From Candidatus Omnitrophota bacterium (GTDB lineage Bacteria > Omnitrophota > Gorgyraeia > Pluralincolimonadales > Pluralincolimonadaceae), in contig JAUYOH010000074.1 in the NCBI GenBank assembly GCA_030695925.1, positions 1 through 61,941 of the forward strand: DNA of 61,941 nucleotides. Direction: 5' to 3'. Positions 519 through 36,639 of this stretch are shown in pieces (within the stretch, counting starts at the first letter, position 1; each line of letters starts with the position of its first letter). A program made the position numbers and the translations under genes. The notes under the pieces are model-generated. The model was not told the DNA's origin, searched no databases, and saw nothing but the letters and a program-made list of their open reading frames with translations.

Positions 519-526
519 GGCAGGAT

Positions 527-907: not shown

Positions 908-919
908 ATTTTATTTATC

Positions 920-1294: not shown

Positions 1295-1360
1295 CCCTCC
1301 ACCCCCTATTATATTATTTTACCTTCTTAAATTCGGTTCCCTCATCCTCCTTTTTGTATT

Positions 1361-1389: not shown

Positions 1390-1411
1390 CCATTTTATTT
1401 CAGCTCATACC

Positions 1412-1774: not shown

Positions 1775-1804
1775 CTTCTAAGGCATCCTTGTTTTTCTGA
1801 TTAT

Positions 1805-1832
1805 ATTATACTCCCTAAACGGGGCTTTACAA
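1805..1832 (-). promoter_or_regulatory. Promoter for PilZ protein 3
   Basis: The minus strand reads TTGTAA (1832-1827), a 16-nt spacer, then a perfect TATAAT (1810-1805). The -35 box matches in only four positions. Transcription would start near 1798, about 25 nt before the ATG. It overlaps no other element but stands back to back with the plus-strand promoter at 1847..1875. Confidence 0.5.
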
Positions 1833-1846
1833 TATAATTTTTTACT

Positions 1847-1875
1847 TTGACAATCGTTCCTTGCGATGTTAAAAT
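1847..1875 (+). promoter_or_regulatory. Sigma70-type promoter for the GspA/GspB-like pair
   Basis: A perfect TTGACA at 1847-1852 is followed after 17 nt by TAAAAT at 1870-1875. The predicted start is about 1882, and a GGGAGG ribosome-binding site precedes the GTG start at 1921. It drives the only two plus-strand genes in the window. Confidence 0.65.
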
Positions 1876-1920
1876 AATACCAGATTATTAAAACGCGCCT
1901 CTGATGGGAGGTTCCTTACC

Positions 1921-3224: not shown

Positions 3225-3922
3225 GGTTTGGTAAGTACGAAGGAATCCCTGAACTGCCTTTCTTTCCTTAATCGTTGGACTGTCTTATTCGCTTCTTTTT
3301 TGTCCAGATATTCGCCCGCATAGATAATGTATTTGCTCTTTCCTGAAGCAGACTTTATCTCCTTCAAATCAGACAATATCTTCTTGGAAGAAAGAAGCCG
3401 CATCGCGTTCTGCGCGTCTTCCTTTTTGGAGGTGGTATAGGCCTGGATAGTATAGACCTTCGCGGGCGCCGATTCGATCCTTGCCGCCCCCGATACTTTT
3501 CCTTCCCTGACCTCTTTAATTATAAACTTCACCGTAAAGACGGAGGCGACCATGACGGCCAAGAGGACGACGGCCGAACCGATGATTATAAGATGTTTCA
3601 CCTTTAGAAAAGGCGGCTTAAACCAGAATTCCGTGCGCGCTAAGGACTCTTTCTCTCTTCTGAGCCTGTTTACCTCATCCTTAAGATGTTTAAATTCGGC
3701 CTGCAGGCTTTTCAATTCCGCGTCTACTTCTTTCTTTATCTTGCTGTCAAATTTTTCCTCTATCGGTTTTTCCTCTTTCCCTTCAACGATGGCGGCGGAG
3801 TCCATGACCTCGAGCTTGTATCCGCCCTTGCCGAGGTAATTGCCGTAGAGTTGTTTCTGTATCTCTTTCTCGGAGAGATTCTTTAAATTTTTTTCCTTCT
3901 TATCGGATCTCTTCCAGAACAC
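3218..3922 (-). CDS. SPOR-domain membrane protein 1
   Basis: 234 residues from a GTG at 3922, one nucleotide after the ybgC stop. The cytoplasmic N-terminal half is highly charged with a coiled coil near 65-100. A single membrane helix (HLIIIGSAVVLLAVMVAS) is near 110-128. The C-terminal 75 residues (VYTIQAYTTSKKEDAQNAM onward) form a SPOR-like repeat, a domain that binds denuded septal peptidoglycan. It may be a divisome or cell-wall remodelling protein. The exact family is not recognised; the C-terminal fold assignment is by pattern only. Confidence 0.6.
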   Translation of the reverse strand: MFWKRSDKKEKNLKNLSEKEIQKQLYGNYLGKGGYKLEVMDSAAIVEGKEEKPIEEKFDSKIKKEVDAELKSLQAEFKHLKDEVNRLRREKESLARTEFWFKPPFLKVKHLIIIGSAVVLLAVMVASVFTVKFIIKEVREGKVSGAARIESAPAKVYTIQAYTTSKKEDAQNAMRLLSSKKILSDLKEIKSASGKSKYIIYAGEYLDKKEANKTVQRLRKERQFRDSFVLTKPQ

Positions 3923-3923
3923 C

Positions 3924-4322
3924 TTAAGCCCGCCTCTCTATAACCTCTCTTATGTCTTCGGGGATCTTTACTGGTTTTCTGTCCTTATTGACCAGTGCCT
4001 GGACCGTCTTGCCTGTGGCTAAAAGATCTTTACCCTTTACTACTTCATACTCAAAGGTAAAACTGGTATTCATCACGGAAGATATCCGTGACCTTATCGT
4101 AATCTGGTCGTCATAATATGCCGGCTGTTTATACTGACAGGAAGAACTGACAACGACGATATATATGCCTTTCTTTTCCAGTTCGGCATAGGGCAGGCCC
4201 GCGCTCCTGAAAAATTCGGTCCGCGCTATCTCAAACCAAACGTAATAATTGGCATAGTAGACTATGCCGAATTTATCCGTCTCCTGGTAGCGGACCCTGA
4301 TGTCAACCGAACATACGCCCAT
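3924..4322 (-). CDS. ybgC: YbgC/FadM-type acyl-CoA thioesterase
   Basis: 132 residues with a single hot-dog domain. The 4-hydroxybenzoyl-CoA thioesterase signature ETDKFGIVYYANYYVWFE lies near residues 14-31, including the catalytic Asp of the ETD motif. It hydrolyses acyl-CoA or acyl-ACP thioesters. In proteobacteria ybgC begins the tol-pal cluster, but no tol genes are here. It lies between GNAT and SPOR genes in one tightly packed direction. Confidence 0.8.
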   Translation of the reverse strand: MGVCSVDIRVRYQETDKFGIVYYANYYVWFEIARTEFFRSAGLPYAELEKKGIYIVVVSSSCQYKQPAYYDDQITIRSRISSVMNTSFTFEYEVVKGKDLLATGKTVQALVNKDRKPVKIPEDIREVIERRA

Positions 4323-4331
4323 ACATAATTC

Positions 4332-4787
4332 TCAAATGGTTAAGGTGAACTTTATGATATTGACCCCGCCTAAATCCAGCTTTTCCTTCTCCTTAAATCC
4401 CTTGATCATGCAAAGTCCCATAGCGGCCTTCATCGCATTGGAAGCGTGAAAGATGACTTCATGATATCCTTTTTCCCTGCAAAAATCCAAAGCCTTTCCT
4501 ATCAAAAGGCGGCCATAGCCCTTTCCACGGTACTTAGGACTTATAAAAAGTCTCCTTAAGATCGCGATATCCCCAGACTCCTCTTTTACGGCGGCCGTCC
4601 CTATTATATGACCTTCATTCTCACCGACGAAAAATACCTCTCTCGCGCCGCCGTATACCTTGGATATAGAGTCCAAGTCGGAATGCGGATAGGCCTTCTG
4701 GTCCATCGCAAAATCATTTGCCAAAATACCGGTAATGAGCTTTTTAACCTGCCCCTGGTCTTTAATATTAAATCGCCTGATCTTCAT
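4332..4787 (-). CDS. GNAT-family N-acetyltransferase
   Basis: 151 residues covering one GNAT domain. The acetyl-CoA pyrophosphate loop is visible as KYRGKGYGRLL (R/Q-x-x-G-x-G) near residues 89-99, preceded by the RRLFISP strand. The substrate cannot be told from sequence. About 40 nt separate it from rnc upstream, with no strong terminator between. Confidence 0.8.
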   Translation of the reverse strand: MKIRRFNIKDQGQVKKLITGILANDFAMDQKAYPHSDLDSISKVYGGAREVFFVGENEGHIIGTAAVKEESGDIAILRRLFISPKYRGKGYGRLLIGKALDFCREKGYHEVIFHASNAMKAAMGLCMIKGFKEKEKLDLGGVNIIKFTLTI

Positions 4788-4826
4788 CGTTGTTCAGCCC
4801 TTTTTTATTTGATTTTACTTCTCCTG

Positions 4827-5546
4827 TTAAGATTTGTCAAGTAAACCCGTATTCAAGAGAGCTTCATACGCGGCGTCCTGCTGTGCTGATTTCTTGTTCT
4901 TCCCCTCCCCTTTGCCGCGTATCATACCACCGAAGGAAACGGCCACTTCAAAATGCTTCCTATGGTCGGGGCCTTCCTCAAATATGACGGCATATCTCGG
5001 AGGCGCTTTATACTCCTTTAGAGTATATTCCTGCAGGATGGACTTATAATCTTTCTTTGCGCCGCCCTCAAATACCTTTTTAATCTCTTCCTTGAAATGA
5101 AATTCTATAAAATTATTTGCCTTCTTAAAGCCGCCGTCGAGATAAATCGCCCCTATTATCGCCTCATAAACCCCTACGATGTTGCTGGGCTGGTCAGCGC
5201 CGCCGCCCGCCGCCTCACCCTTCCCTAAAAGGAGCAGCCCGCCTACCGCAAGCCGCCTTGCCAGATTTTCCAAAGTAGTCCTGCCAACGAGCATGGACCT
5301 TATCCTCGTCATCTCTCCTTCCTGGCAATCGGGAAGCTGCCTGTAGATATAATCACTTATAGCCAATCCCAACACCGCGTCCCCTAAGAACTCGAGGCGT
5401 TCGTTGTCTATGGTCCTTTCCCGAGGGTGTTCGAAAGCATAAGAGCGATGGGTTAACGCCTGATCCAGCAGGTTTCTGTTCCTGAAATTATAACGGAGCA
5501 GGCGTTGAAAATCCTTTAGGTCTATGATCCGTGCTCTATCGGTCAT
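4827..5546 (-). CDS. rnc: Ribonuclease III
   Basis: 239 residues, normal length. The nuclease domain carries the signature ERLEFLGDAVL at 49-59, with the acidic metal ligands, and a second acidic segment (YEAIIGAIYLDGG) near 128-140. A double-stranded RNA-binding domain follows (DYKSILQEYTLKEY to the C-terminus, ending in KKSAQQDAAYEALL). It processes rRNA and structured mRNA. It overlaps aroB by 11 nt. Confidence 0.95.
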   Translation of the reverse strand: MTDRARIIDLKDFQRLLRYNFRNRNLLDQALTHRSYAFEHPRERTIDNERLEFLGDAVLGLAISDYIYRQLPDCQEGEMTRIRSMLVGRTTLENLARRLAVGGLLLLGKGEAAGGGADQPSNIVGVYEAIIGAIYLDGGFKKANNFIEFHFKEEIKKVFEGGAKKDYKSILQEYTLKEYKAPPRYAVIFEEGPDHRKHFEVAVSFGGMIRGKGEGKNKKSAQQDAAYEALLNTGLLDKS

Positions 5547-6672
5547 CGGCGGGCGTTGTTTTGAGGGATAGCCTGTTCAATTCCTGACGTATCATCTCTT
5601 CGGATATGCGCTCTTTTATTATGACTCTCCCTACCCTGACGGGAAGGACAAACCTGGTTATACCATGTATAAATTTCTTGTCGTAGGCCAACGATCTCAT
5701 TATCTTGCGGGTATCTACTCTTTTTATCTTGGTAGGCAGACCGAAAGACCCGATCATCTCTTCGATCTTAAGAAGGTCTGCGACGGAAAGATGTCCCATG
5801 CGGTTTGATATCCGCGCGGCGACGATCATACCCAAGCCTACCGCCTCCCCGTGAGAATAGAATCCGGAGTAGCCGAAGGCAGTCTCTATGGCATGGCCTG
5901 CCGTATGCCCGAAATTCAATATCGTCCTTATTGATTTACGTTCTCTCTCGTCTTTAGATACGATATCGGCTTTTATCTTCGCGCACCTTGCTATTATCTC
6001 CTTGAGAGCCTTCGTCTCGCGCCTTAATATCGCGGATCTGTTATCGCGAAGGTAATTAAAAAGCGCCTTGTCCTTTATTACGCCGTATTTTATGATCTCC
6101 GCCATTCCGGAAATGAAATCACGCCGCGACAAACCCTTGATAAACGATATGTCTATATAAACGAGCCTCGGCTGATAGAAGGAGCCGGTCAGATTTTTCC
6201 CGGTAGTCAAATCTATCGCTACTTTCCCGCCTATCGAAGAATCTACCTGCGCCAGCAAAGTAGTCGGTATCTGGATATACGGAATGCCGCGTTTATATAT
6301 TGAAGCGACAAAGCCCGCTAAGTCACCGACAACACCGCCGCCCAGAGCGATGACGCAAAGCCTCTTCCCCTTGCCGTCGATCTTGGAGATCGCGCCTAAA
6401 AGCTTGACCGCCTCTTTTACGGATTTCGCTCTTTCGGAATCGGGTACTAATACCGGACTTACCCTAAGGCCGGAACCCTTAAGGTAATATCGAACGCTTT
6501 TCCCGAACAATGAATTTATTTTTGGATTTGTTATTAATACCGCGTCCGTCCCCAAATTCAGGGATTTCAATTTCCGCGGTAACATCTTGAGGCTATTTTC
6601 GATGAGGATCTTATAACTTCGGTCTCCCAAACTAACGATCGTGGGGTTCATTTTGAATTTTACGACTGGCAT
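5536..6672 (-). CDS. aroB: 3-dehydroquinate synthase
   Basis: 378 residues. It converts DAHP to 3-dehydroquinate with NAD and a divalent metal, the second step of the shikimate pathway; aroQ for the next step is at 22338. Motifs seen are ALGGGVVGDLAGFVAS near 111-126, DSSIGGKVAIDL near 144-155 and the metal-ligand segment NFGHTAGHAIE near 254-264. The ATG at 6672 overlaps the stop of the small basic protein gene as TAATG, which favours this start over Met8 and indicates coupling. Confidence 0.95.
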   Translation of the reverse strand: MPVVKFKMNPTIVSLGDRSYKILIENSLKMLPRKLKSLNLGTDAVLITNPKINSLFGKSVRYYLKGSGLRVSPVLVPDSERAKSVKEAVKLLGAISKIDGKGKRLCVIALGGGVVGDLAGFVASIYKRGIPYIQIPTTLLAQVDSSIGGKVAIDLTTGKNLTGSFYQPRLVYIDISFIKGLSRRDFISGMAEIIKYGVIKDKALFNYLRDNRSAILRRETKALKEIIARCAKIKADIVSKDERERKSIRTILNFGHTAGHAIETAFGYSGFYSHGEAVGLGMIVAARISNRMGHLSVADLLKIEEMIGSFGLPTKIKRVDTRKIMRSLAYDKKFIHGITRFVLPVRVGRVIIKERISEEMIRQELNRLSLKTTPADDR

Positions 6673-6962
6673 TAAGACTTCTGTTGTTCTTTCTTGGCTG
6701 GCGCTGCCTGAGGTTTTGCTCCGGCCGGCGCTGCGGCGGCGGGCGCTCCGGCAACCGGTGCCGCGGCGGCTTCAGCTGCGGGTTTCTCGACCTTTTCTTT
6801 CTTTACCTTGATCTTTATCGATTTGACCTTGGGCAGACCAAAGACCGATACCCCTTCCCTCCATTTATCCTTATCCAACAGCATCTTTACCCGCTCAAAC
6901 CTCTTGAATACGGATCTATGGCCCTTGCCCTTAGCCGGCCTCAAACTGGGATGGATCGACAT
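6672..6962 (-). CDS. PVC-type small basic protein
   Basis: 96 residues. The first 57 are strongly basic, with HPSLRPAKGKGHRSVFKRFE, then KWREGVSVFGLPK and KSIKIKVKKEK. These match a short family I recall as restricted to Chlamydiae, Verrucomicrobia and related PVC phyla (TIGR04137-like, from memory). The function is unknown; the charge suggests nucleic-acid or ribosome contact. The C-terminal 40 residues are an Ala/Pro-rich tail. It is upstream of aroB with a 1-nt stop/start overlap. Confidence 0.75.
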   Translation of the reverse strand: MSIHPSLRPAKGKGHRSVFKRFERVKMLLDKDKWREGVSVFGLPKVKSIKIKVKKEKVEKPAAEAAAAPVAGAPAAAAPAGAKPQAAPAKKEQQKS

Positions 6963-25856: not shown

Positions 25857-28496
25857 TTATTTCTCTTTCTTCGTCGAAACCGGCTTAGGATCAGCGACGG
25901 GATAGATCAATACCTCGTTTAATCTCGAATCCGCGAAGTATTTTCTCGCGACACGGATGACGTTGTCGGCGGTAACAGATTCTATCGCGGCCGGATATGA
26001 GAAGATATTCTCATAACCTAAACCGTAGAGCTCATCCAATCCCGCCCTAAATCCCACCTCAGAATCTATCTCTAAACTGCGGAAATAAGCGCCCGCTAAG
26101 TCACTTTTCGCCAAATTCATTTCTTCCTGCGTTGGCCCTTCACTCTTTAATGACTTAATCTGCCCTAATAAGAGCCTTTTCGCCTCGTCCACATTCTTGT
26201 AGGAAGTAGCGACATATAAGGCGTTATATCCGGGGTCTATGCCTAAGACCGAAAACGAACCAAGTGTATAAGAAAGGCCGAGCCTTTCTCTTATCGCCGT
26301 ATACAACCTTCCCCCCTCATGGCTGAGTATTGAGTTTATTACGTCCAAGACGTACCTGTCCGGATTTCTCACGTCGACGCCGGGATATCCCATCATGAGG
26401 ACGCTCTGTTCCTTGAACATCTGCCTTAACGACTGACGGGAGCCGGTCTGTTCGGGTTCAAGCGGTACGCTTGGTCCGTTCAGGCGGCCGCGCAATCTAC
26501 CGAATATAACCGAGGCCTCCTTCTGCGTCTTGACAGCGTCTATGTCTCCGAATATCGCCACGACCATATTGTCAGGCACTATAAAACGCCTGTAATATTT
26601 AACGAGATCGTCCCTCTTCAAATTATTTACCGATTCCTTTGTCCCCAGGTCAGGCATACCGTATGGATGGTATTTGAATATACTCTTTATCAGCTCCTTC
26701 GAGGCGGTCGCGAATATGTCGTCCTCCTGCGCCTTGATGGCGGCAAGCTGGAGGTCCTTCAGGATACCGACCTCTTTCTCGGGAAAATTCGCGTTCCTTA
26801 AGATATCGGAGATTAAATCCAAGGAAAAATCAAAGTCGTCCTTTAAGCACTTGACCGAGATCCCGAAAGAATTCTTTCCGCTGAAACTCGTAAAGATGAT
26901 CCCGCGCGATTCCGTCTCTTTCGCTATCCACTCCGCGGAATGAGACCCCGTCCCTTTTAAGAGGGCGTTTGCCATAAGGTAAGACAGGCCGTTTGTAGTT
27001 TTATCCTCGGTGCGGACGCCGCCTTTGAATAAAATGTTCATCGATACGATCGGTAAGGAGCGGTCTTCACACAATAAGATAGTCGCGCCGTTAGACAAAG
27101 ACGTCTTCTTTATATCAAACTTCCTGTTCTCATTTGACGCGGGTACTGCGCCTGCGGCCGTCTCCTTCTGCGCCTTTATGACGGCGACAGTCATATTATC
27201 AAGGCCAAGGTATTTATTCGCAACCCGCGCTACGTCGCGCTTCTTTACGGCACCTATGCCTCTTAGATATCTCTTGGAAAAATTATAGTCGCCTGTCAGG
27301 GCATAATTCGAGGCGTAATCATCGGCCTGCGCCTCGATGGATTCTTTTGAGTAGATAAAACTGCTTAGGGCGGCTTTCTTCACTTTATTCAGCTCGCCGC
27401 TTAAGAGAGAACTTCTCTTTATCTTCCTCAGTTCATTTAAGACCTCAGTGACCGCTTCTTCTATCTTCTCCTCCTCAAGGGCAATGCCTATGATAAACAG
27501 ACCGGCGTCCTGCGGCGTATAATTATACGATGAGACCGAATAGGCCAGTTTCTTGTCCTTGACCAATCTCTTATACAATCTTGAACTCTCTCCCTCGCCG
27601 AGTGCCACCGCCAGCAGATCAAGGGGATACAAGTCTTCGCTCGCCAAGGCGGTCCCGTGGAAAGCTATCATCGCGCGGGAAAGTTTGAGCTGCGGGATTC
27701 CTTCTTCGGCCCTTCTTGGAGAGACCTGCAATGGCTCTATAGGCCTGCCAGATTGGATATCCGGCTCCCTCGGCAATCTCCCGAAGATGTCTTTGGCTAC
27801 TCGTCCGGCATTCTCCGCATCAATATCTCCGACGATAGAGAGGATACAATTATTGGGTATATACTTCACGCTGTGATATTCGATGAGGTCTTCTCTGGTT
27901 ATCCTCTTAAAGAGGTCTTCATAGCCTATTACGGGGTAACGGTAGGGATGCACCAGGTAAGCGCTGCTCCATAATAGCACCGATGCCCTCCGGGACGGCT
28001 CATCCCGGTTCATCCGTATCTCGCTTAAAATTACCTCTCTCTCCTTCTCAAACTCTGCTTTGTCAAAGGTGGGATTAAAGACGAGGTCGGATAAAAGCTC
28101 CAATACCTCCTCAAGGTGCTCTCTCTTCACAATAAGGAGGACCTCTGTCGTATCATGGGAAGTGGAGGCATTAATATATCCGCCGTAAGATTTTATCTGT
28201 TTTTCTATCTGTCCGACAGGGCGGCTGGGCGTGCCCTTAAACAGCATATGTTCCGTGAAATGGGATATACCGTTGCCGGCAAATCTGCCTTCCGTGGCAG
28301 AACCTGTCTTTATGACAAGTCTGACCGCGACCAACGGGACCTTATCGGAGTTCTTTATGATTACGGTCAGGCCGTTATCTAAGGCGAGTTTCTGGATTGG
28401 CTCTTCGTATTCTGATCGCTGAAGGGGAGATCCTTTGAATACAAACGCTGCGGAAGCTATAAGGCACAGAAAAATAAAAAGATAAAAAATCCTCAT
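25857..28496 (-). CDS. Double-unit M16 zinc protease (PqqL/pitrilysin-type)
   Basis: 879 residues. An N-terminal signal or anchor (1-20) is followed by two M16 halves. The first has the inverted zinc motif HFTEHMLF near 81-88 with a downstream Glu (LSEIRMNRDEPSR). The second half (from about residue 450) has lost it: TTNGLSYLMANALLKGTG occupies that place. This active plus inactive arrangement makes the closed chamber of M16B/C enzymes. Substrate is probably a periplasmic or leader peptide. Confidence 0.88.
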   Translation of the reverse strand: MRIFYLFIFLCLIASAAFVFKGSPLQRSEYEEPIQKLALDNGLTVIIKNSDKVPLVAVRLVIKTGSATEGRFAGNGISHFTEHMLFKGTPSRPVGQIEKQIKSYGGYINASTSHDTTEVLLIVKREHLEEVLELLSDLVFNPTFDKAEFEKEREVILSEIRMNRDEPSRRASVLLWSSAYLVHPYRYPVIGYEDLFKRITREDLIEYHSVKYIPNNCILSIVGDIDAENAGRVAKDIFGRLPREPDIQSGRPIEPLQVSPRRAEEGIPQLKLSRAMIAFHGTALASEDLYPLDLLAVALGEGESSRLYKRLVKDKKLAYSVSSYNYTPQDAGLFIIGIALEEEKIEEAVTEVLNELRKIKRSSLLSGELNKVKKAALSSFIYSKESIEAQADDYASNYALTGDYNFSKRYLRGIGAVKKRDVARVANKYLGLDNMTVAVIKAQKETAAGAVPASNENRKFDIKKTSLSNGATILLCEDRSLPIVSMNILFKGGVRTEDKTTNGLSYLMANALLKGTGSHSAEWIAKETESRGIIFTSFSGKNSFGISVKCLKDDFDFSLDLISDILRNANFPEKEVGILKDLQLAAIKAQEDDIFATASKELIKSIFKYHPYGMPDLGTKESVNNLKRDDLVKYYRRFIVPDNMVVAIFGDIDAVKTQKEASVIFGRLRGRLNGPSVPLEPEQTGSRQSLRQMFKEQSVLMMGYPGVDVRNPDRYVLDVINSILSHEGGRLYTAIRERLGLSYTLGSFSVLGIDPGYNALYVATSYKNVDEAKRLLLGQIKSLKSEGPTQEEMNLAKSDLAGAYFRSLEIDSEVGFRAGLDELYGLGYENIFSYPAAIESVTADNVIRVARKYFADSRLNEVLIYPVADPKPVSTKKEK

Positions 28497-28775: not shown

Positions 28776-29513
28776 CTATTTGCGGATGAAAGATATCTGG
28801 CAGGTAAACGTTATCTCAGGGGCCAAGATGTCCTTTGGGAGCTTCGGAAAAGGAGAGGAATTTCTTACGGCTTCGAATGCCATCTTACGCAGAGAACTGT
28901 CTTTTACGGATTTTTCGCCTATGATGCTAATATCTTTTAATTCGCCGCGTGACGTAATCACAAATCGAACGAAGACATCTCCCTCGCCTCCCGAATCGTC
29001 CGAATCCAGGTTATCTATTATCCTGCCTCGGACCATCTGGGCGTATGAGGGCGGTACCAGCCGCAGATCTTTTAAGTCTACGGAGGCTGTCGTCTCTGTC
29101 TTTGGAACGACGGGTTGTTTGATCACTACCGTGGCTCTCTGTTCAGGAGTGGGTTTCTTGTTAATTTTTACCTCATCCTTTTTCGCCTCGATGATATCTT
29201 TCTTTGGAGCCGCGGCGTCAGATTTCTTTGGCTGGCCGGCATTAGGAAGTTCCTCACTTACTATTTTGGTCGGTTGAGCCGATTCCAGTTGAGGTTGAGA
29301 TTTCTTTACGGCGTCTTCCGATTTCTTCGGAGCCGCCGTAGGCGGCTCCTTGGCTCTAACGTATGTTATCTCGATGTCTTTAAATTGGTCTTTAACGGAA
29401 AACAGGCGTCCGTAAAAAGACCAATTGGCGACAGCGATGGCGTGAAAAATAATAGACAATATTAAGGCGTACCTAAACGACCTGTTTATTTCTACCGAAT
29501 AATCAAAAGTCAA
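28776..29513 (-). CDS. tonB: TonB energy-transducing protein
   Basis: 245 residues. One N-terminal membrane helix (YALILSIIFHAIAVANWSF near 12-30), a long Lys/Pro/Ala periplasmic spacer, and a C-terminal TonB domain (GEGDVFVRFVITSRGELKDI near 175-194; LRKMAFEAVRNSSPFPKLP). It transmits proton-motive force to outer-membrane receptors. It overlaps btuB by 11 nt, so it is probably dedicated to B12 uptake. exbB and exbD are not in the window. Confidence 0.88.
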   Translation of the reverse strand: MTFDYSVEINRSFRYALILSIIFHAIAVANWSFYGRLFSVKDQFKDIEITYVRAKEPPTAAPKKSEDAVKKSQPQLESAQPTKIVSEELPNAGQPKKSDAAAPKKDIIEAKKDEVKINKKPTPEQRATVVIKQPVVPKTETTASVDLKDLRLVPPSYAQMVRGRIIDNLDSDDSGGEGDVFVRFVITSRGELKDISIIGEKSVKDSSLRKMAFEAVRNSSPFPKLPKDILAPEITFTCQISFIRK

Positions 29514-31332
29514 CCCTTGCTCCCCCGTTTATAGCGAAGCCCGGCATCGGATAATCCAGAACCCTCTGATATCTCCTGTTGAATATATTATCAATTGAAA
29601 GAAAAGTAGTCAAATTATTATTCGCCTTATATGAGGCATCGAGGTAACAAACGACATCCTGCTTCAAGAATCTGGTATTTGTGACATTCGTATACCGCCT
29701 GCCTAAAAGCTGTCCGTAAAACCTTACATTTAGTTTCTTATATTCATAAGTCAATCCGAAATCCAATTTATGCTTCGCCCTGTATATAAGAGACCTGTCC
29801 CTCTCTATATCTAACGGATAAAGATGCGTGTATCCGAAATCAGCTTTTAGGTATTCCGCCAGAGGCACTACCGTCTTTAACTCGATACCGTCTATCTTGG
29901 CGGAGCCGACATTAGTAGGCCGCCACACAAAATCATCGCCCGGCGCCCAGTTTATCAGGTCTTTTAATTTATTGGTAAAATAAGTGGCGCTTACCTCAAA
30001 TTCATTCGGATATTCGATATCAAAACCGCCTTCCCACGACCATGACTTCTCCGGCCTTAGTCTGGGGTTGCCCTCGCTAAAGCCGTCAAACGGCCAATAC
30101 AGGTCGTTGAATGTGGGCGCGCGGAATCCCTTGGCGTAATTGACCCTTAACTTGGCGTTCTCGTTTATCTTGTAACTGGCGCCAGCGCTTTGCGTCGACT
30201 CGCTACCGAAATTTGAATAGTCATCCCACCTTGCGCCGAAATTTACGTTCCAATCTTTACCGATGGAAACCTCGTTCTGTAAAAATGGCGAACGGATAAT
30301 GTATCGGTGCTTACCAAAAGTCGAAGCGTTCGCCTTGTTGTCCTTGCCGTCAAAGCCGGCGATTACCTTATAAAAATCAAAAAACTCCTGCGTATACTGG
30401 GCAACCAAGCCTCGGACTCTTGATCTGGCAGCGTCTTTTAACGGCTGCGGATTGGTTGAGCTTATGAATTCCAGGCGATCGGTATTCTGGTATCCCCTGA
30501 CACTAACATTTGCTTCTTCAAATAACTGCGCAGACCATGCCAGATCAAGATAATTCTTGAAATTAAATTGCAAATCGTCCGTCTCGGGAAAAAGGATCGA
30601 ACCGGGAGCACCCGCCCTATCCTCGAAATAACCGCCGTTAAATGATAACTTATTATTATCGCCAACACGGTAATCGAGTTTTGTCGTCCAGTTGTGTGAG
30701 CGGTACTCAGAATTATCCCTGTGTCCTAACGATGAGTCATAGGTATAATTGAAAAAATATCCGAAGTCTTTTATCGTGGCGGAAGAAGAAAGCGATTCGT
30801 GAAATGTCTTAAAGGTACCGAAGCTTGATTCAATCGTCGTTTTTGGTTTCTTTGAGGGGCTCTTTGTTATAACATTGATGACGCCGCCTATGGCGCTCGA
30901 ACCGTATACCGCGGAGGCCGGCCCCTTGATCACTTCTATTCTCTCTATCGTATCCACGGGTATCTGGTGTAGCTCTGCCTGTCCGCTTCGCGGATCGTTA
31001 ATCGGCCTGGAATCCACCAACACCAGAACTTGTTCGGCCGTCGACCCGCGCAGTTGGATCGATTTTAAAGCGCCTAACGAACCGTAATCAATCACTGCCG
31101 CCGAGGTCAGTCTACCCAATGGTTTAGAGATATTCTGCGAATACGTAGATTCTAGTTCTTTATAATGAATAACGTCCATACTTCTGGAGACCTCGCCATA
31201 TGCTTGCTCTGTCCCCATCGGCGTAATCACTATCCTCTCTAATTCTACGTTTAACGGCTCTTCGCAAAATGCGACGCCTCCGGACACTATCAAAAAACAA
31301 CCGATTGCTGAAATTAAATTAACTCTTTTCAT
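29503..31332 (-). CDS. btuB: BtuB-like TonB-dependent cobalamin receptor
   Basis: 609 residues from the ATG at 31332, which follows a GAGGGAGGAG site and starts a signal peptide (MKRVNLISAIGCFLIVSGG). Longer frames upstream merely translate the riboswitch. A TonB-box-like ERIVITPMG is near residue 30. The plug domain (SIQLRGSTAEQVLVLVDSRP; GPASAVYGSSAIGGVINVIT) is followed by a 22-strand barrel ending in the outer-membrane signal RVDF. The cobalamin riboswitch before it and btuF/C/D beside it identify the substrate. Confidence 0.9.
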   Translation of the reverse strand: MKRVNLISAIGCFLIVSGGVAFCEEPLNVELERIVITPMGTEQAYGEVSRSMDVIHYKELESTYSQNISKPLGRLTSAAVIDYGSLGALKSIQLRGSTAEQVLVLVDSRPINDPRSGQAELHQIPVDTIERIEVIKGPASAVYGSSAIGGVINVITKSPSKKPKTTIESSFGTFKTFHESLSSSATIKDFGYFFNYTYDSSLGHRDNSEYRSHNWTTKLDYRVGDNNKLSFNGGYFEDRAGAPGSILFPETDDLQFNFKNYLDLAWSAQLFEEANVSVRGYQNTDRLEFISSTNPQPLKDAARSRVRGLVAQYTQEFFDFYKVIAGFDGKDNKANASTFGKHRYIIRSPFLQNEVSIGKDWNVNFGARWDDYSNFGSESTQSAGASYKINENAKLRVNYAKGFRAPTFNDLYWPFDGFSEGNPRLRPEKSWSWEGGFDIEYPNEFEVSATYFTNKLKDLINWAPGDDFVWRPTNVGSAKIDGIELKTVVPLAEYLKADFGYTHLYPLDIERDRSLIYRAKHKLDFGLTYEYKKLNVRFYGQLLGRRYTNVTNTRFLKQDVVCYLDASYKANNNLTTFLSIDNIFNRRYQRVLDYPMPGFAINGGARVDF

Positions 31333-31335
31333 TTT

Positions 31336-31352
31336 TTCTCCTCCCTCGAGAA
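31336..31352 (-). promoter_or_regulatory. Hairpin presenting the btuB ribosome-binding site
   Basis: On the minus strand TTCTC and GAGAA pair (5 bp) around the loop GAGGGAG, which is the Shine-Dalgarno sequence, 3 nt before the ATG. It lies directly after the cobalamin aptamer P1 stem. Placement fits translational control in which the ligand-bound aptamer docks on or blocks this loop. The pairing is seen; the mechanism is inferred. Confidence 0.5.
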
Positions 31353-31358
31353 TACTTC

Positions 31359-31457
31359 CCAGATAGTCAATCGTCCGGGCTCTCCCAACGTAACGCTGGG
31401 GATTACCGTTGCGGGGCAGCGCTTGGAATCTCACCAAGACTTCCTCTGCCTATCCGG
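31359..31457 (-). promoter_or_regulatory. Cobalamin riboswitch upstream of btuB
   Basis: Stem P1 is formed by CCGGATAG (31457-31450) and CTATCTGG (31366-31359) with one G-U pair. The core holds GGAAGTCTTGGTGAGATTCC, then the B12-box CTGCCCCGCAACGGTAA, a P5-like CCCAGC/GTTGGG hairpin and a final GCCCGGA segment. It begins only about 14 nt after the btuD stop, so it is either internal to the upstream operon or served by a promoter within btuD. No intrinsic terminator follows, unlike the copy upstream of cobU. Confidence 0.88.
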
Positions 31458-31470: not shown

Positions 31471-32283
31471 TCAATAAGTCCTTTTAGCCAGTTTTTGCCT
31501 TTCCTCTTCAGAGACTAATAATATATAAGGCTTGGAGGAAACGGGGTTTTTCTCAACCACTACGACCGTTTTGTAGACTTCTTCTATGACGTCATAATTC
31601 AACACCTCCTCGGGTTGCCCCATTTTATGAATCCGCCCGTCGTTAATAAGGATCAGGCGCTGGCAGTATTCGCTTGCTAGATTGAGGTCGTGCAAGACCA
31701 TGATTACGGTAAGCCCCAGCTCCCGATTGAGTCTTTTTATAAGGTCCAAGATGCCTACCTGATGGGTTATATCCAAATGCGCCGTAGGCTCATCCAACAA
31801 AATAAGCCTCGGTTCCTGGGCGAGGGCCTTCGCAATGAATATCCGCTGCCTCTCGCCGGCGCTTAACTGGTCTATCGGACGATTTATAAAATCCACGCAG
31901 TCGGTAACGGTGAGCGCCCGGCGGACGATATCGATATCGCGCCTTGATTCATCCTGAAACAGGCGCAGGTACGGCGACCTTCCCATCAACGCTATCTCCA
32001 GTGCCGTAAAAGCGAACGTGACAACCGTGCCCTGTGTGACAAAGGCCACGGATTTGGCAAATTCCTTAAGCGGCATATTGTAGATATCGCGCCCGTCAAG
32101 CGATATATTTCCGCTCTTCGGATGGATGGCCCTGCTTACCGTCTTGAGCAACGTCGATTTTCCGGCGCCGTTGGGGCCTATGATGCCGAGGAACTCCCCT
32201 TTTCCGACGGAAAAAGACATCCCCTTCACTATCATCTTCTCTCCGTAGCCGCTTACAACATCCCTTATCGTCAATATGTCCAT
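31471..32283 (-). CDS. btuD: Cobalamin ABC transporter ATPase
   Basis: 270 residues. ABC motifs: Walker A GPNGAGKST near 36-44, signature LSAGERQRIFIAKAL near 140-154, Walker B RLILLDEPTAHLD near 158-170, switch His in VMVLHDLN. It powers BtuC-mediated import of corrinoids from BtuF. It lies 1 nt after btuC. Confidence 0.92.
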   Translation of the reverse strand: MDILTIRDVVSGYGEKMIVKGMSFSVGKGEFLGIIGPNGAGKSTLLKTVSRAIHPKSGNISLDGRDIYNMPLKEFAKSVAFVTQGTVVTFAFTALEIALMGRSPYLRLFQDESRRDIDIVRRALTVTDCVDFINRPIDQLSAGERQRIFIAKALAQEPRLILLDEPTAHLDITHQVGILDLIKRLNRELGLTVIMVLHDLNLASEYCQRLILINDGRIHKMGQPEEVLNYDVIEEVYKTVVVVEKNPVSSKPYILLVSEEERQKLAKRTY

Positions 32284-32284: not shown

Positions 32285-33286
32285 TTAAACCTTTGATTTT
32301 TTCCTTAAGAGGTATATAAAAAACGGCCCGCCGACGATAGCGGTTATCACACCTATCGGGATCTCAGAAGGAGATATCGCGACTCTCGCCAGGGAATCGC
32401 AAACAATAAGAAAGATGGCTCCCGCCAGAAAAGAAGCCGGGATAAGTACCTTATAATTGGGGCCTACGATCAGCCTCATGAAATGCGGAACGATCAATCC
32501 CACAAAGCCTATCATTCCCGCCGCCGATACTATAGCTCCGGTAATCAATGCGGATATAAAAAAGAGCGTCTTCTTAACCCGCTCAATGTCAATGCCGAGA
32601 TGAAGCGCCTCTTCCTCGCCGAGCGAGATAGCGTTTAACTCCCTGTGGAACATGAAAGATAGAATAACGCCTATAGCCACCACCGATCCCACCGAAAATA
32701 AGAGATTGAGATCAAATACCTGAAGACTTCCCAGCATCCACCACATCACGCTATGGAGAGTCTGGCTTTGCGAAAATGAGTCGATAAAGATAACTACGGA
32801 TGAAAGAACCGCTCCGATCACCACTCCCGACAATAATAGATTCTGAAGCGGCAATCTGCCGTTTATCTGCGCGATCCTATATATAAAAAACAGGGTTATC
32901 GCCGCGCCGAGAAAGGCGAATACCGGCAAGATCCCGAAGCCGAATACCGTATAGCCGATACCGACCGAGATCGCCGAAACAGCGCCTAATGCCGCTCCGC
33001 TTGAGATCCCTAAGACGTAGGGCTCACAGAGCGGATTCCTTAATAGGCCCTGCAGGATCGCGCCCGTGACCGATAATCCGCCGCCGGCGATGACCGCCAT
33101 AAGCAGGCGCGCCAGTCTAATATTGCGTATCTCTTTGTTTGCGGGATCAAATATCTCAAAGAAGCCGAACTTAACAGCGCCCGCGTAAACAGAAATGAGC
33201 GCGAAAAAAATCAGCATGACTATAAGCGCCGTGATTGCCCTTGCGCTCTTACCCTTGGACTCTTCAAAAGCACGCTCTATTTCCAT
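32285..33286 (-). CDS. btuC: Cobalamin ABC transporter permease
   Basis: 333 residues, about ten membrane helices, FecCD/BtuC family. Characteristic segments: RLARLLMAVIAGGGLSVTGA near 58-77, LLRNPLCEPYVLGISSGAALG near 84-104 and the ATPase-contact region LGEEEALHLGI near 224-234. Start at 33286 follows btuF by 2 nt. Confidence 0.92.
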   Translation of the reverse strand: MEIERAFEESKGKSARAITALIVMLIFFALISVYAGAVKFGFFEIFDPANKEIRNIRLARLLMAVIAGGGLSVTGAILQGLLRNPLCEPYVLGISSGAALGAVSAISVGIGYTVFGFGILPVFAFLGAAITLFFIYRIAQINGRLPLQNLLLSGVVIGAVLSSVVIFIDSFSQSQTLHSVMWWMLGSLQVFDLNLLFSVGSVVAIGVILSFMFHRELNAISLGEEEALHLGIDIERVKKTLFFISALITGAIVSAAGMIGFVGLIVPHFMRLIVGPNYKVLIPASFLAGAIFLIVCDSLARVAISPSEIPIGVITAIVGGPFFIYLLRKKSKV

Positions 33287-33288: not shown

Positions 33289-34125
33289 CTATTTATAGAA
33301 CCTCTTATATAATTCTTCTGTCCCGCGGACCAAACGAGGGCCGGGCCGGAAAAGCAGGTCGGAATCTATATCATCATAGACCCTGCCGTATCTTACCGCA
33401 TTTATGTTCTGCCAACCCAACCTCTTGGAGACCGCCCCTGTCGCCGAGACGCCCATATTCATATAGCCCAATATGATCACATCCGGATTTCTTTCTATGA
33501 TCAATTCCGGGCTGAATTGCGAAAACGGCCTCGGTGCGTCAGAGGTGATGTTAATGCCGCCTGCGATCTTTATCATCTCGTCTACCAAAGATCCCTTTCC
33601 TACCGTCATAATAGGGTCATGCCAGATCTCAAGATAGACCTTCGGTCTCTCTGATTCCTTTACCAAATCGACTTTCTCCGAGATCCGCGCAATCGAGCTT
33701 CTCATGCTTTCTATCAAAGCGGCGGATTGGAACTGTCTACCGCAAATCTCCCCTATCCCTTTAACGCAGGCGAAGAACTCCTCGAAATTCTTGGGATCTA
33801 CGATAAAGACATTAATATTCATCTTTTTAAGCTTAAGGACTGTATATGCCTGCTCAAGGCCGGTTGCGAGTACCAAGTCGGGCTTAAGGGAGATTATTTT
33901 CTCGATACTCGGATCGCTAAATGACCCTATTTTCTCCTTGCTCTTGACCTCTTGCGGATAATCGCAAAAAGTCGATACGCCGACCAGGTTATCGAATAAA
34001 CCCAGCGCGCAGGCTATCTCGGTCGCGCTCGGGGTAACGGAGATTATCCTCAATTCTTTCGCCGGCAGTTCGCTGTTTATTGAGAAGATTAACGTCAGAA
34101 TGATTATCTTGATAAGGTATCTCAT
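33289..34125 (-). CDS. btuF: Periplasmic corrinoid-binding protein
   Basis: 278 residues. A signal peptide (1-22) precedes a class III binding-protein fold: SVTPSATEIACALGLFDNLVG near 29-49, CDYPQEVKSKEKIGSF, KPDLVLATG near 86-94, and WHDPIMTVGKGSLVDEMIKI near 168-187. It delivers the B12 captured by BtuB to BtuCD. Its position between cobS and btuC supports corrinoid over siderophore. Confidence 0.9.
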   Translation of the reverse strand: MRYLIKIIILTLIFSINSELPAKELRIISVTPSATEIACALGLFDNLVGVSTFCDYPQEVKSKEKIGSFSDPSIEKIISLKPDLVLATGLEQAYTVLKLKKMNINVFIVDPKNFEEFFACVKGIGEICGRQFQSAALIESMRSSIARISEKVDLVKESERPKVYLEIWHDPIMTVGKGSLVDEMIKIAGGINITSDAPRPFSQFSPELIIERNPDVIILGYMNMGVSATGAVSKRLGWQNINAVRYGRVYDDIDSDLLFRPGPRLVRGTEELYKRFYK

Positions 34126-34126: not shown

Positions 34127-34864
34127 TTAGATAAGGACCACCGCGAGAGCCAGTGTCAGCACTTCCGTTACCTCATTCAATGCGCCCAGCGTGTCGCCTG
34201 TTATCCCGCCTATCTTTTTATAAAAATAAAAATTAAACCCGATTAAAAGGACGGCAACGACCGGTATTAAAATGAGCACTTTGAACTTAAAGATAAAAAC
34301 CATAACCAATAAAGCGAATAGGGTGGCTATAAATCCTTCCTTCCGGCTTAAACTCTGGATAAATTTTCTACCCAGCCCCTCGCCTTCTCTGGCGTACGGG
34401 AATAATGACGAAGACGCGACGAGTGACCACCTGCCTAAAGTCGTCATGGCGATTAACGATACTTCTACGGTGCCTTTCGGCAAAGAAACAAGCAGCGAAT
34501 ATTTAGCCAGAAACAAAAGAATAGCGGCCGCGATGCCTATAGCTCCCGGCCGGCCTTCGCGCATTATCTCAAGTATCTTATTTTTATCCCCGCCGCTGGC
34601 TGTTCCGTCGAAGGTATCGATAAACCCGTCTATATGAAGGCCGCCCGTGATCATGGCATTTAGAATCAGTATAAAAGCGCAGGTTACCGGATCTGAAAAT
34701 ACCAGATTAAATATATTGTAAAATAATGCCAGCGTCGTCCCCACAAGGAAACCGACCAGCGGAAAATAAGCCATTGACTTTGCGAGATCCTTATCCGCTA
34801 CGGCATCTTTTAGTCTTACGGGTACCGTTGTCAAAAACTGCAGCGCTATTAAAAAAAACCTCAT
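34127..34864 (-). CDS. cobS: Adenosylcobinamide-GDP ribazoletransferase
   Basis: 245 residues from the ATG at 34864 (MRFFLIALQFLTTVPVRL), 13 nt after the cobT stop. The frame extends 21 codons further into cobT but without family similarity. Polytopic membrane enzyme with the conserved GGLHIDGFIDTFDG near 74-87, the Asp-rich active site. It joins alpha-ribazole from CobT with adenosylcobinamide-GDP from CobU, the final step of nucleotide-loop assembly. Confidence 0.92.
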   Translation of the reverse strand: MRFFLIALQFLTTVPVRLKDAVADKDLAKSMAYFPLVGFLVGTTLALFYNIFNLVFSDPVTCAFILILNAMITGGLHIDGFIDTFDGTASGGDKNKILEIMREGRPGAIGIAAAILLFLAKYSLLVSLPKGTVEVSLIAMTTLGRWSLVASSSLFPYAREGEGLGRKFIQSLSRKEGFIATLFALLVMVFIFKFKVLILIPVVAVLLIGFNFYFYKKIGGITGDTLGALNEVTEVLTLALAVVLI

Positions 34865-34877
34865 GGTTCGAGTCCGC

Positions 34878-35951
34878 TCACGATGACTCCTCCGAAACAC
34901 CGGCTTCGGAAAATGTCGCCATTTCATTAAATATCTTGACAGCCGCTTCAGCTATCCCGATTCCTAGAGCAGCACCCGTACCTTCGCCAAGCCTCATCTC
35001 GAGATTCAATAACGGCTTTTGATTGACGTGTCTCAATATGGCCAATTGCCCGGCCTCAACCGATTGATGGGCAAATATCATATAATCACTGACATCACGA
35101 CATATCTCGAACGCTATCAAAGCACCGCAAGATGCTATAAACCCATCTACCATAACGGGAACCTTCTTAGATGCGGCAGCCAATACGACACCGGCAATGC
35201 CGCCTATCTCGAACCCTCCCACCTTGGATAAAACATCTATAGGGTCTTTTGGGTTTGGGTTATGCAAAGACAAGGCCCTTTTTATGACTTCGATCTTACG
35301 GTTGTAAGATGTGTCGTCTATACCCGTGCCCTTGCCTGTCACTAAGGCAGCGTCTTCTCCTGTTATGGCGGCGACTATCGCGCTTGAAGCGGTAGTATTG
35401 CCAATTCCCATATCCCCCACTCCGACTATATCAATCGCTTTCTCGGAGTAAGCCTCTTCAAAGACCTCGATGCCTCCGAGTATAGACTTTAAAGCTTCTT
35501 CTCTTGACATAGCCTGTTCTTTTGCAAAATTCTTTGTGCCTGAATTTACTTTTTTGTCCTTGAATCTTTTTTCGCCTGAAGCGACGATCTTTTCTTTGAC
35601 ACCCATATCAACGACGATAACTTCTGCGCCGACATGCTTTGCCAAAACATTTATTCCAGCTCCCCCTCTTAAAAAATTGTATACCATCTGAGGGGTGACT
35701 TCCTGAGGATAGGCGCTGATGCCCTCTTCGCACACACCGTGGTCAGCTGCCATCGTAAATATCACTTTCCTTTTCAGGGACGGTTTCAGATTCTTAGAAA
35801 TAGCGACGATGCGCATCGCGATCTCTTCTAACCGCCCTAAGCTCCCTTTCGGTTTGGTCAGATTATCCAACCGGTGTTGCGCCTTAGCGTAATAAGTTAC
35901 GTCGACCGGTTCGATTTTTTCCAGGACATCATTTGCTAATCGGCTGGACAT
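34878..35951 (-). CDS. cobT: Nicotinate-nucleotide-dimethylbenzimidazole phosphoribosyltransferase
   Basis: 357 residues. Activates the lower-ligand base for cobalamin. Motifs: LTKPKGSLGRLEEIA near 31-45, ADHGVCEEGISAYP near 71-84, GGAGINVLA, GDMGIGNTTASSAI near 178-191, and the catalytic-Glu segment MRLGEGTGAALG near 323-334. The start overlaps the DUF71 gene by 23 nt. Its choice of base cannot be told from sequence. Confidence 0.95.
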   Translation of the reverse strand: MSSRLANDVLEKIEPVDVTYYAKAQHRLDNLTKPKGSLGRLEEIAMRIVAISKNLKPSLKRKVIFTMAADHGVCEEGISAYPQEVTPQMVYNFLRGGAGINVLAKHVGAEVIVVDMGVKEKIVASGEKRFKDKKVNSGTKNFAKEQAMSREEALKSILGGIEVFEEAYSEKAIDIVGVGDMGIGNTTASSAIVAAITGEDAALVTGKGTGIDDTSYNRKIEVIKRALSLHNPNPKDPIDVLSKVGGFEIGGIAGVVLAAASKKVPVMVDGFIASCGALIAFEICRDVSDYMIFAHQSVEAGQLAILRHVNQKPLLNLEMRLGEGTGAALGIGIAEAAVKIFNEMATFSEAGVSEESS

Positions 35952-36639
35952 ATCTTTCTCCTTTCGGCTCTAGGCTATACTCCTGAATATCTAAAAACCA
36001 GTGATTGCTACGCAACACCTTTTCCGTTTTACGGATTTCTATTCTTTTCTCAAAGTTAGGGCCGTCAAAGACAAAAGTATGATATTCGCCGTTCTCTCCG
36101 CAAAGATCGACCCCCTCTATTTTCGCGAGGTCCTCCATAAATTTCTCATCAATTACACGGCCGATCCAGTTTTCGTTCAGCAACTCCGCTCTCGTCGCGG
36201 TAACGATCGCCTTGAAGCCAGTATTAATAAATTCGGTCAATACCTCTCTCGAAGGGATTTCCCAAAGAGGTTCCACCGCTTCCAGCCCCTCCTCTTTGCA
36301 GATTCTCTCTACCCAATTTTGGACATCGAGCAGGAATATATCGCCTGCGATTATAGATTTGACGCCATCGGCCTTCAAGAACCTCAAACTTTCCCTGAAA
36401 ACTTTCTCATAGGCGCCTTCCGCCTTAATGACTTCTCTCTGTAATAAAGGAATGCCCATCGCCTGTGCTTGCAGCTGTACCAATTCAGACTCAACACCAT
36501 GAAAACTGACTCTCTTAAACTCCTGAGAGACGAAGTTCATAAGATAAGCGATTTTATGCCCGTCTTTTATTGCCTTATAGCAAGCAAGGCAACTATCCTT
36601 ACCGCTGCTCCATGAACAGGCTGCCGTCAATCCTGACAT
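35929..36639 (-). CDS. DUF71/COG2102 PP-loop ATPase in the B12 regulon
   Basis: 236 residues. PP-loop motif WSSGKDS near 11-17, then FHGVESELVQLQAQAMGIP and a C-terminal GENGEYHTFVFDGP near 199-212, all typical of the family that includes diphthine-ammonia ligase. Bacteria do not make diphthamide; published comparative genomics (recalled) predicted that a subgroup of this family acts in B12 salvage, perhaps an amidation. Its place between cobU and cobT under a cobalamin riboswitch fits that subgroup. Confidence 0.82.
   Translation of the reverse strand: MSGLTAACSWSSGKDSCLACYKAIKDGHKIAYLMNFVSQEFKRVSFHGVESELVQLQAQAMGIPLLQREVIKAEGAYEKVFRESLRFLKADGVKSIIAGDIFLLDVQNWVERICKEEGLEAVEPLWEIPSREVLTEFINTGFKAIVTATRAELLNENWIGRVIDEKFMEDLAKIEGVDLCGENGEYHTFVFDGPNFEKRIEIRKTEKVLRSNHWFLDIQEYSLEPKGERYVQPISK

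Follow-up and report, generated by a model that had tools for sequence, protein, structure and literature searches.

A DUF71/COG2102 PP-Loop Protein in a Corrinoid Salvage Operon of a Candidatus Omnitrophota Bacterium: A Probable Role in B12 Salvage Apart from CbiB

Introduction

Why would a bacterium keep a relative of a diphthamide-synthesis enzyme in an operon for vitamin B12 salvage? The question is raised by a 61,941-nucleotide stretch of DNA from a Candidatus Omnitrophota bacterium (contig JAUYOH010000074.1 of assembly GCA_030695925.1, positions 1 to 61,941; hereafter, the window), in which the gene for a DUF71/COG2102 PP-loop protein lies between cobU and cobT. The Pfam name of its family, PF01902, is diphthamide synthase, and this name is attached to members even in bacteria, which do not have diphthamide according to the available parts of a 2012 study (PMC3541065). 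There, de Crecy-Lagard et al. distinguish a bacterial subgroup, DUF71-B12, with the motif ENGE[FY]H, from the diphthine–ammonia ligase Dph6, with EGGE/DXE. They propose that DUF71-B12 makes adenosylcobyric acid (AdoCby) as the amidohydrolase CbiZ does or serves another pseudo-B12 route, and they take a strict anti-correlation of DUF71-B12 and CbiZ in bacteria as a sign of equivalence.

A first-pass annotation of the window called the B12 role predicted but unproven. This description holds: we found no experimental function in open-licence PubMed Central (PMC) papers, and the available parts of PMC5481537, PMC5041015, and PMC8305020 contain no experiment on the subgroup. Here, we report that the DUF71 protein very probably has a role in B12 salvage, which is well supported, and that it quite likely does not provide CbiB with cobyric acid. 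Our tentatively preferred reading is that of an accessory enzyme with imported corrinoid as its target, which it would probably modify by ATP-dependent amidation of a side-chain carboxylate. While this kind of protein was already predicted in 2012 (PMC3541065, available parts), what is new is the evidence for a role independent of the known salvage branches and a recurring amide-forming partner.

Results

PF01902 is the sole Pfam match of the window protein (189.9 bits, E 5.8e-56, cut-off 23.2), with residues 7–222 on positions 4–218 of the 219-position profile. Residues 10–16 form the PP-loop WSSGKDS, in which W10, S11, G13, and K14 are unchanged across 21 aligned sequences, and the first-pass call of a DUF71/COG2102 PP-loop enzyme stands. 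An AlphaFold model (predicted local distance difference test, pLDDT, 92.5) matches PH1257 and PF0828 (2D13, 3RJZ, 3RK0, and 3RK1) with Z 27–30 and a root-mean-square deviation of 1.6–1.9 over 206–212 residues at 34–36% identity. Further structural matches drop to about Z 12–13 and belong to PP-loop enzymes of other kinds, among them argininosuccinate synthase and QueC; Foldseek likewise places PH1257/PF0828 nearest. In the model, the HUP fold is joined by the additional C-terminal domain that characterizes DUF71/COG2102. The ATP-binding residues S11, G13, K14, D15, H47, E185, and T188 are kept, with one swap, Ser12 in the window protein where Dph6 has Gly13. There was no match to PF01955 (CbiZ) in the protein, and the single Pfam match gives no indication of the AP-endonuclease-2 TIM barrel of CbiR.

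Dph6 (EC 6.3.1.14; PF0828, PH1257) shares with the window protein a fold of about 210 residues, the PP-loop, and the residues H47, E182, E185, and T188. However, the Dph6 model TIGR03679 of NCBIfam scores the window protein at 164.3 bits, under its equivalog cut-off of 197.3. The available parts of the 2012 study list nine residues at a modelled EF-2 interface and predict Glu188 to be catalytic in Dph6 (PMC3541065). Six of the nine are changed in the window protein (PF0828 S44, Y45, E78, Y103, Q104, and E188 to R43, V44, Y77, D105, V106, and H187), and three are kept (A149, E183, and E186, corresponding to A151, E182, and E185). D100 and G193 are invariant, at positions occupied by Ala and Met in the two Dph6 structures. 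At position 187, all 76 rows labelled B12-linked, the window included, have His, and both Dph6 structures have Glu. The first-pass annotation had read GENGEYHT as a signature of the diphthine–ammonia ligase family, and neither the signature nor the membership survives this comparison. GENGEYH at residues 181–187 instead has the ENGE[FY]H form of DUF71-B12 (PMC3541065, available parts), though this form is not sufficient for the assignment. As a marker for B12, the motif was rejected, with His also present in 54 of the 55 rows labelled unlinked. The window protein is not a diphthamide enzyme and fits the bacterial DUF71-B12 subgroup.

The genomic context is that of corrinoid salvage. On the minus strand, a cobalamin riboswitch (RF00174, 68.1 bits) is followed by cobU, DUF71, cobT, cobS, btuF, btuC, btuD, and btuB, and then by two further genes, for a protein of TonB type and for a peptidase of family M16 (Table 1), as the first-pass annotation had it for cobU, cobT, and the riboswitch. 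The gap between cobU and DUF71 is 9 bp, whereas the last 23 bp of DUF71 also belong to the cobT frame as listed. The names of the btu transporter and receptor genes rest on similarity and context since their NCBIfam scores lie under the model cut-offs. Frames and family scans of the window revealed no cbiB, cbiP, or AsnB-like gene in the operon.

Phylogeny agrees with this context. The tree holds 137 rows, 134 of them different, and comes from a quick IQ-TREE run with Shimodaira–Hasegawa-like approximate likelihood ratio test (SH-aLRT) support only, without bootstrap. It excludes L040, L094, and frames under 150 amino acids (aa), and keeps the duplicate pairs L101/L061, L124/L053, and L136/L068. 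Four rows lie on contigs too short for a B12 label, and the label ignores btuB, cbiP, and the AsnB-like gene, so that a few rows (L057/G161) count as unlinked in the tree and as linked in the genome table. The closest row to the window protein is L100 (76% identity over 226 columns), and L060, L102, L054, L061, and L101 join next. All seven rows of this clade, which is starred (96), are B12-linked (L101 repeats L061). The first-pass annotation had named placement in an unrelated clade as one outcome that would speak against a B12 role; this is not where the protein falls. Over the whole tree, B12 linkage is clustered, with 17 changes compared with a shuffled mean of 45.2, and none of 500 shuffles was as low, a clustering to which near-copies contribute. 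In the named genome collection, the three closest relatives all belong to Candidatus Omnitrophota, and the DUF71 rows of three loci from the phylum draw are identical to Omnitrophota records of that collection; the phylum was accordingly taken to be Omnitrophota.

A second starred clade holds 45 rows, 40 of which had no B12 neighbours found, and it shares ENGE[FY]H and mostly Asp100. Because this mostly unlinked clade carries the motif too, ENGE[FY]H marks bacterial DUF71 rather than a B12 role, and the B12 claim rests on the operon and the tree, not on the motif. The same clade contains loci of Flavobacterium and its like (L147–L179) and the second-type DUF71 genes of two draw genomes (L086 of G019 and L088 of G033). 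Isolates of Flavobacterium, Algoriphagus, Hymenobacter, and Gracilimonas were considered as cases negative for CobS and CbiB and were rejected, as no B12 neighbours were found for their DUF71, which belongs to this clade.

To place the protein among the salvage branches, we relied on the presence or absence of genes in single genomes. The draw comprised 165 genomes of the phylum, searched with profiles for PF01902, CbiB, CbiZ, CobU, CobS, CbiP, CbiC, and adenosyltransferases of the PduO and CobA types, with CobT outside the genome-wide search. Neighbours in draw loci were named by phmmer against proteins of the window and of contig C74 (see below), and distant “Btu” names denote similarity. 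A DUF71 gene was called B12-linked where Btu, Cob, or adenosyltransferase genes lie beside it or, in G161, btuB and a riboswitch. PF01902 was above cut-off in 50 of the 165 genomes, 39 of them B12-linked and 11 unlinked. CbiB was absent from 28 of the 39 linked genomes, 26 of which are at least 90% complete, and present in 11, including the window’s own genome by way of contig C74. Neither CbiZ nor CbiC was found in any of the 39. CobU and CobS occurred without CbiB in 16, while a further 11 (G037, G050, G051, G062, G066, G069, G086, G106, G107, G118, and G161; nine at least 90% complete) had none of CobU, CobS, CbiB, and CbiZ. In seven of these 11, the neighbours at the locus are only of transport or adenosyltransferase type (btuB, btuFCD, a DUF6580 protein, cobA), and each of the nine loci scanned from the 11 genomes has a cobalamin riboswitch on the same strand as DUF71. 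L082 and L084 have this riboswitch between a DUF71–DUF6580 pair and btuB, where it may not control DUF71.

This pattern reaches the window protein’s own clade, where G037, G106, and G118 sit and where L102 is also without CobS and CbiB; four of the five distinct nearest relatives have neither. L100, the nearest, has a cobalamin riboswitch with a B12 operon, no cbiB or cbiP on its 6.4-kb contig, and no CbiB match in its genome, for which completeness is not given. Beyond the phylum, 50 of the 80 loci of the named set were used, and 49 genomes were searched (L171 is not among them). Of the 27 linked among them, 13 were without CbiB and four also without CobS (completeness not given); L130 has CobU and CobT beside DUF71, and its absent CobS may be a gap.

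Our premise is that AdoCby needs CbiB and that cobinamide needs CobU and CobS. Since genomes without CbiB, CobU, and CobS keep DUF71 beside a transporter, neither AdoCby nor cobinamide supply can in general be its job. The role is narrowed accordingly to one whose product, in general, can be neither the cobyric acid that CbiB uses nor the cobinamide that CobU uses. The window locus resembles the DUF71-B12 subgroup of 2012 in its motif, in its clustering with B12 transport and salvage genes, and in a genome with no CbiZ match. In the available parts of that study, however, the subgroup is tied to CbiB and CbiZ patterns (PMC3541065), whereas the window operon and 28 of the 39 genomes are without CbiB. 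Tested singly, linked DUF71 showed no significant association with CbiB, CbiZ, or CbiC (p 0.17, 0.34, and 0.20).

A role as a missing adenosyltransferase was also considered. It was rejected, as 37 of the 39 linked genomes have CobA or PduO, and the exceptions, G062 and G086, are 82% and 75% complete. Unlinked DUF71 had no association with adenosyltransferases either (9 of 11 compared with 113 of 154, p 0.73).

The operon also exists without the gene. Three genomes of the window’s family (G019, G033, and G119) carry cobU-cobT-cobS-btuFCD-btuB in identical order with DUF71 absent, followed after btuB by frames of 873, 886, and 879 aa, which are of M16-like size (not family-scanned). In G019, cbiP immediately precedes cobU. 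G019 and G033 have a DUF71 of the other clade elsewhere in the genome, and G119 has none. Among the fetched draw loci, the best matches of the window cobU, cobT, cobS, btuF, btuC, and btuB come from these three genomes, while the nearest DUF71 proteins, with the exception of L100, are from other parts of the phylum. As the operon exists without DUF71 in these genomes, its step is accessory, and an operon already in place thus either acquired or lost the gene at a site between cobU and cobT.

The window’s genome (G000) is a metagenome-assembled genome (MAG), 94.6% complete with 7.4% contamination, in which there was no match to CbiZ (PF01955). Its CbiB is found only on contig C74 (L040), where a second set, cobC-cobU-cobT-cobS-cobD-cbiP-cbiB, occupies positions 261–6782 and beyond; behind cbiB, a DUF71 frame starts and ends after 21 codons. 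All six of the genes tested from this contig have their best match in family f2 (66–85% identity) and not in the genome’s own family, f1. Contig C74 is probably contamination of the MAG, with gene transfer as an alternative.

Amide-forming neighbours recur beside DUF71. A cbiP gene lies within 3 kb of it in 15 distinct loci; in a further 12, a gene for an AsnB-like protein lies at such a distance instead, and the two never occur in one locus. Frames overlap DUF71 in eight of these 27 loci (longest-frame calls). A CbiP-like match in L152 (132 bits) was under the neighbour-search threshold. The ten linked draw genomes with CbiB besides the window’s divide into six with CbiP and four in which the AsnB-like protein is present and CbiP is not above cut-off; this split is 1 in 210, computed post hoc with the window genome excluded. 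CbiP was found without CbiB in 11 genomes (G019, G028, G032, G046, G062, G066, G084, G086, G094, G135, and G160), eight of them at least 90% complete, and DUF71 lies beside it in four. As CbiB is unmatched in these 11, CbiP seems to serve there for something other than feeding CbiB.

The AsnB-like protein is a stand-alone PP-loop protein of asparagine-synthetase type, about 310 aa long with a C-terminal Cys4 motif, encoded in B12 operons (L055 5278–6207, L046 9001–9930, L052 6750–7673, L062 6229–7203, and L073 7082–8008; further loci are L112, L113, L122, L127, L130, L132, L142, and L193). It is near DUF71 in 12 of these 13 loci and never shares a locus with CbiP. Its fold resembles AsnB and beta-lactam synthetase, and it is a candidate replacement for CbiP.

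Discussion

In the reading that we prefer, the DUF71 protein would be a PP-loop ATPase added to a corrinoid salvage operon and, to judge from the riboswitch, made under B12 scarcity. It would act on corrinoid imported by BtuB and BtuFCD, apart from both the CbiB route and the assembly of the lower loop by CobU, CobT, and CobS. On a corrinoid whose side-chain amides are incomplete or have been hydrolysed, the enzyme would adenylate a carboxylate, releasing pyrophosphate, and ammonia would then displace AMP and restore the amide, which would be the Dph6 reaction on a corrinoid. CbiP (CobQ, adenosylcobyric acid synthase) carries out ATP-dependent amidation of corrinoid side chains and would thus work like the proposed DUF71 reaction; it belongs to another family, with a glutaminase domain. 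Amidation is preferred here because the neighbours CbiP and the AsnB-like protein form amides, as does Dph6, and because relatives with a PP-loop are amidoligases (a reviewer comment in the available parts of PMC3541065). Both the amide and ammonia as the nitrogen source are what we infer, and we regard amide formation on a corrinoid by DUF71 as conceivable, short of likely. Of the chemistry suggested in the first-pass annotation, corrinoid side-chain amidation persists as the preferred option. Cobyric acid-type intermediates, its other suggestion, find no support, with no cbiB or cbiP in the window operon or on the L100 contig and 28 of 39 linked genomes without CbiB.

Several points weigh against this reading. 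The Glu188 predicted to be catalytic in Dph6 is His in the window protein, which may mean a different reaction. The window operon has neither cbiP nor the AsnB-like gene, and the amide argument is indirect for the window protein itself; the exclusivity of CbiP and the AsnB-like protein is borderline over all loci (p 0.049), and the search for the latter covered fetched loci only. Among the 11 genomes that have no CobU, CobS, or CbiB, four do not have pure transport operons, as cbiP lies beside DUF71 in G062, G066, and G086 and the AsnB-like gene in G050. The 26 draw genomes with CbiB and without CbiC divide into 11 with linked DUF71, six with CbiZ, none with both, and nine with neither. The operon also comes from a MAG with the contamination given above. 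Finally, that the substrate is a corrinoid is itself something we infer, and in open-licence PMC papers, we found no documentation of deamidated or carboxylate corrinoids as natural substrates.

A non-corrinoid substrate is an unlikely alternative but one with arguments of its own. DUF71 might act on a peptide, tRNA, or protein that is modified under B12 scarcity, for example, the product of the radical-SAM enzyme CbpB. Genes that spare B12 are under B12 riboswitches as well, the substrate of Dph6 is itself a protein, and CbpB-like frames were found in 11 distinct DUF71 loci, several immediately adjoining DUF71. However, CbpB is absent both from the genes identified in the window operon and from most linked loci, and the neighbours that recur across phyla are those of corrinoid transport and salvage.

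Replacement of CbiZ, in line with the 2012 proposal, appears improbable to us. DUF71 would cut the aminopropanol amide of pseudo-B12-type cobamides to yield AdoCby for CbiB or would serve some other route of pseudo-B12 salvage. CbiZ (adenosylcobinamide/pseudo-B12 amidohydrolase, PF01955) would then act at the same salvage step, and the strict anti-correlation reported in the available parts of PMC3541065 is matched in our draw, where CbiZ and DUF71 occur together in none of the 165 genomes and the split of the 26 genomes just given has the same direction. Lineage may account for this, as all six CbiZ genomes lie outside the window’s class. The product of CbiZ needs CbiB, and AdoCby would be a dead end in the 28 linked genomes without it, 11 of which are also without CobU and CobS, and in 13 of the 27 linked genomes of the cross-phylum set. 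The PP-loop is retained even though hydrolysis requires no ATP. Furthermore, in L113 (2876–4257), from a Nitrospirae MAG, a true CbiZ (PF01955, 169.8 bits) follows right after DUF71 in an overlapping frame, in an operon that reads AsnB-like, CbpB, DUF71, CbiZ, btuF, btuC, btuD, and cobA; the genome has CbiB. The presence of both in one operon implies that they are not interchangeable there and argues against plain replacement. Outside the phylum, the exclusion of DUF71 and CbiZ thus breaks down in L113, an exception to the reported bacterial rule.

Equally improbable is remodelling at the level of cobinamide, in which DUF71 would supply CobU by taking off the lower loop of cobamides that are unsuitable, a reaction for which CbiR has another fold. 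The position of the window gene between cobU and cobT fits this, as do the 16 linked genomes with CobU and CobS and no CbiB, yet the 11 without CobU or CobS, including G037, G106, and G118 of the window’s starred clade, would have no use for the product. The available parts of the report on CbiR of Akkermansia (PMC7733943) present a comparable history, an obscure gene in a cobamide salvage locus that turned out to encode a remodelling enzyme. Unlike DUF71, CbiR is a TIM barrel of AP-endonuclease-2 type that hydrolyses the phosphoribosyl bond to give adenosylcobinamide phosphate (AdoCbi-P) and alpha-ribazole, and it was assayed there in Tris and dithiothreitol, with ATP unmentioned. Lower-ligand activation together with CobT was also considered and is not favoured: neighbours vary, and CobU and CobS are absent in 11 of 39, in a data set where CobT was not searched genome-wide.

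A substitute for CbiB, coupling aminopropanol (phosphate) to cobyric acid, is very unlikely. PP-loop enzymes do make amides, and G094 has cbiP-DUF71 beside cobUTS with no CbiB, but CbiB is also present in 11 of the 39 linked genomes (in one only through the doubtful contig C74), and a different 11, which have neither CobU nor CobS, could make no use of the product. The Pfam name and a fold closest to PH1257/PF0828 notwithstanding, a true diphthine–ammonia ligase can be all but dismissed, given the score under the TIGR03679 cut-off, the six differing contact positions, and the absence of diphthamide from bacteria (PMC3541065, available parts).

If scavenged corrinoids are amidated as we propose, some of the B12 available in the environment would be in the form of damaged corrinoids open to repair by B12-dependent microbes, which would have a bearing on models of B12 exchange. 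A wider version of this reading, which we consider rather doubtful, is that DUF71-B12 forms a second family of corrinoid amide ligases besides CbiA/CbiP, forming a modular pair with CbiP or an AsnB-like stand-in and repairing or completing the side-chain amides of scavenged corrinoids in bacteria that would be unable to make the corrin ring and, in many cases, even the lower loop. Operons without lower-loop genes are the simplest systems in which to study the protein, and the genomes of the window’s family provide natural comparisons without the gene.

Operon Features and Additional Observations

The features of the window operon are collected in Table 1. In addition to these, the DUF71 loci contain two other kinds of recurring neighbours, described below.

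Table 1. Positions in the window of the riboswitch, the salvage and transport genes, and the motifs of the DUF71 protein.
Feature	Position	Strand	Evidence and remarks
Cobalamin riboswitch RF00174	37269..37476	-	cmscan 68.1 bits, gathering threshold 31.5; full model 1–189; operon head
cobU (cobinamide kinase/guanylyltransferase), 172 aa	36649..37167	-	PF02283 200.4 bits; NF004469 192.6, cut-off 161
DUF71/COG2102 PP-loop protein, 236 aa, ATG start	35929..36639	-	PF01902 189.9 bits
PP-loop WSSGKDS, residues 10–16	36592..36612	-	Sequence
GENGEYHT, residues 181–188	36076..36099	-	Alignment columns; His187 at the place of Dph6 Glu188
cobT (lower-ligand phosphoribosyltransferase), 357 aa listed	34878..35951	-	PF02277 442.2 bits; true start may be internal
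cobS (adenosylcobinamide-GDP ribazoletransferase)	34127..34927	-	PF02654 179.2 bits; TIGR00317 140.4, cut-off 110; start may be internal
btuF-like corrinoid-binding protein	33289..34125	-	PF01497 107 bits; top NCBIfam match BtuF, below cut-off
btuC-like permease	32285..33286	-	PF01032 292.3 bits; top NCBIfam matches BtuC, below cut-off
btuD-like ATPase	31471..32283	-	Top NCBIfam match corrinoid ABC transporter ATPase, below cut-off
btuB-like TonB-dependent receptor	29503..31437	-	PF00593 and PF07715; top NCBIfam match TIGR01779 (TonB-B12), below cut-off
TonB-type protein, overlapping the end of btuB	28776..29513	-	PF03544 30.4 bits, cut-off 24.6
M16 peptidase, after the operon	25857..28496	-	PF00675 and PF05193

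The M16 peptidase of the window could, speculatively, release corrinoid from proteins.

CbpB, a radical-SAM peptide maturase (TIGR04163), is encoded in B12 operons of L052 (7879–9273), L062 (7361–8740), and L074 (8533–9861) and further in L067, L068, L071, L112, L113, L115, L127, L139, L191, and L193. The assignment was confirmed by NCBIfam in L052 and L074 and rests on phmmer in the others. Open-licence PMC papers held nothing usable that ties CbpA/CbpB to cobalamin. As a side observation, CbpB may belong to a peptide-modifying system tied to corrinoid salvage.

A DUF6580 membrane protein adjoins DUF71 in L082 (9251–9751), L057 (1733–2257), L083 (7569–8099), L084 (9709–10209), and L102. No btuFCD was seen in these loci, and PF20221 was matched in the three DUF6580 proteins tested. 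This protein might be an inner-membrane component of a corrinoid transporter.

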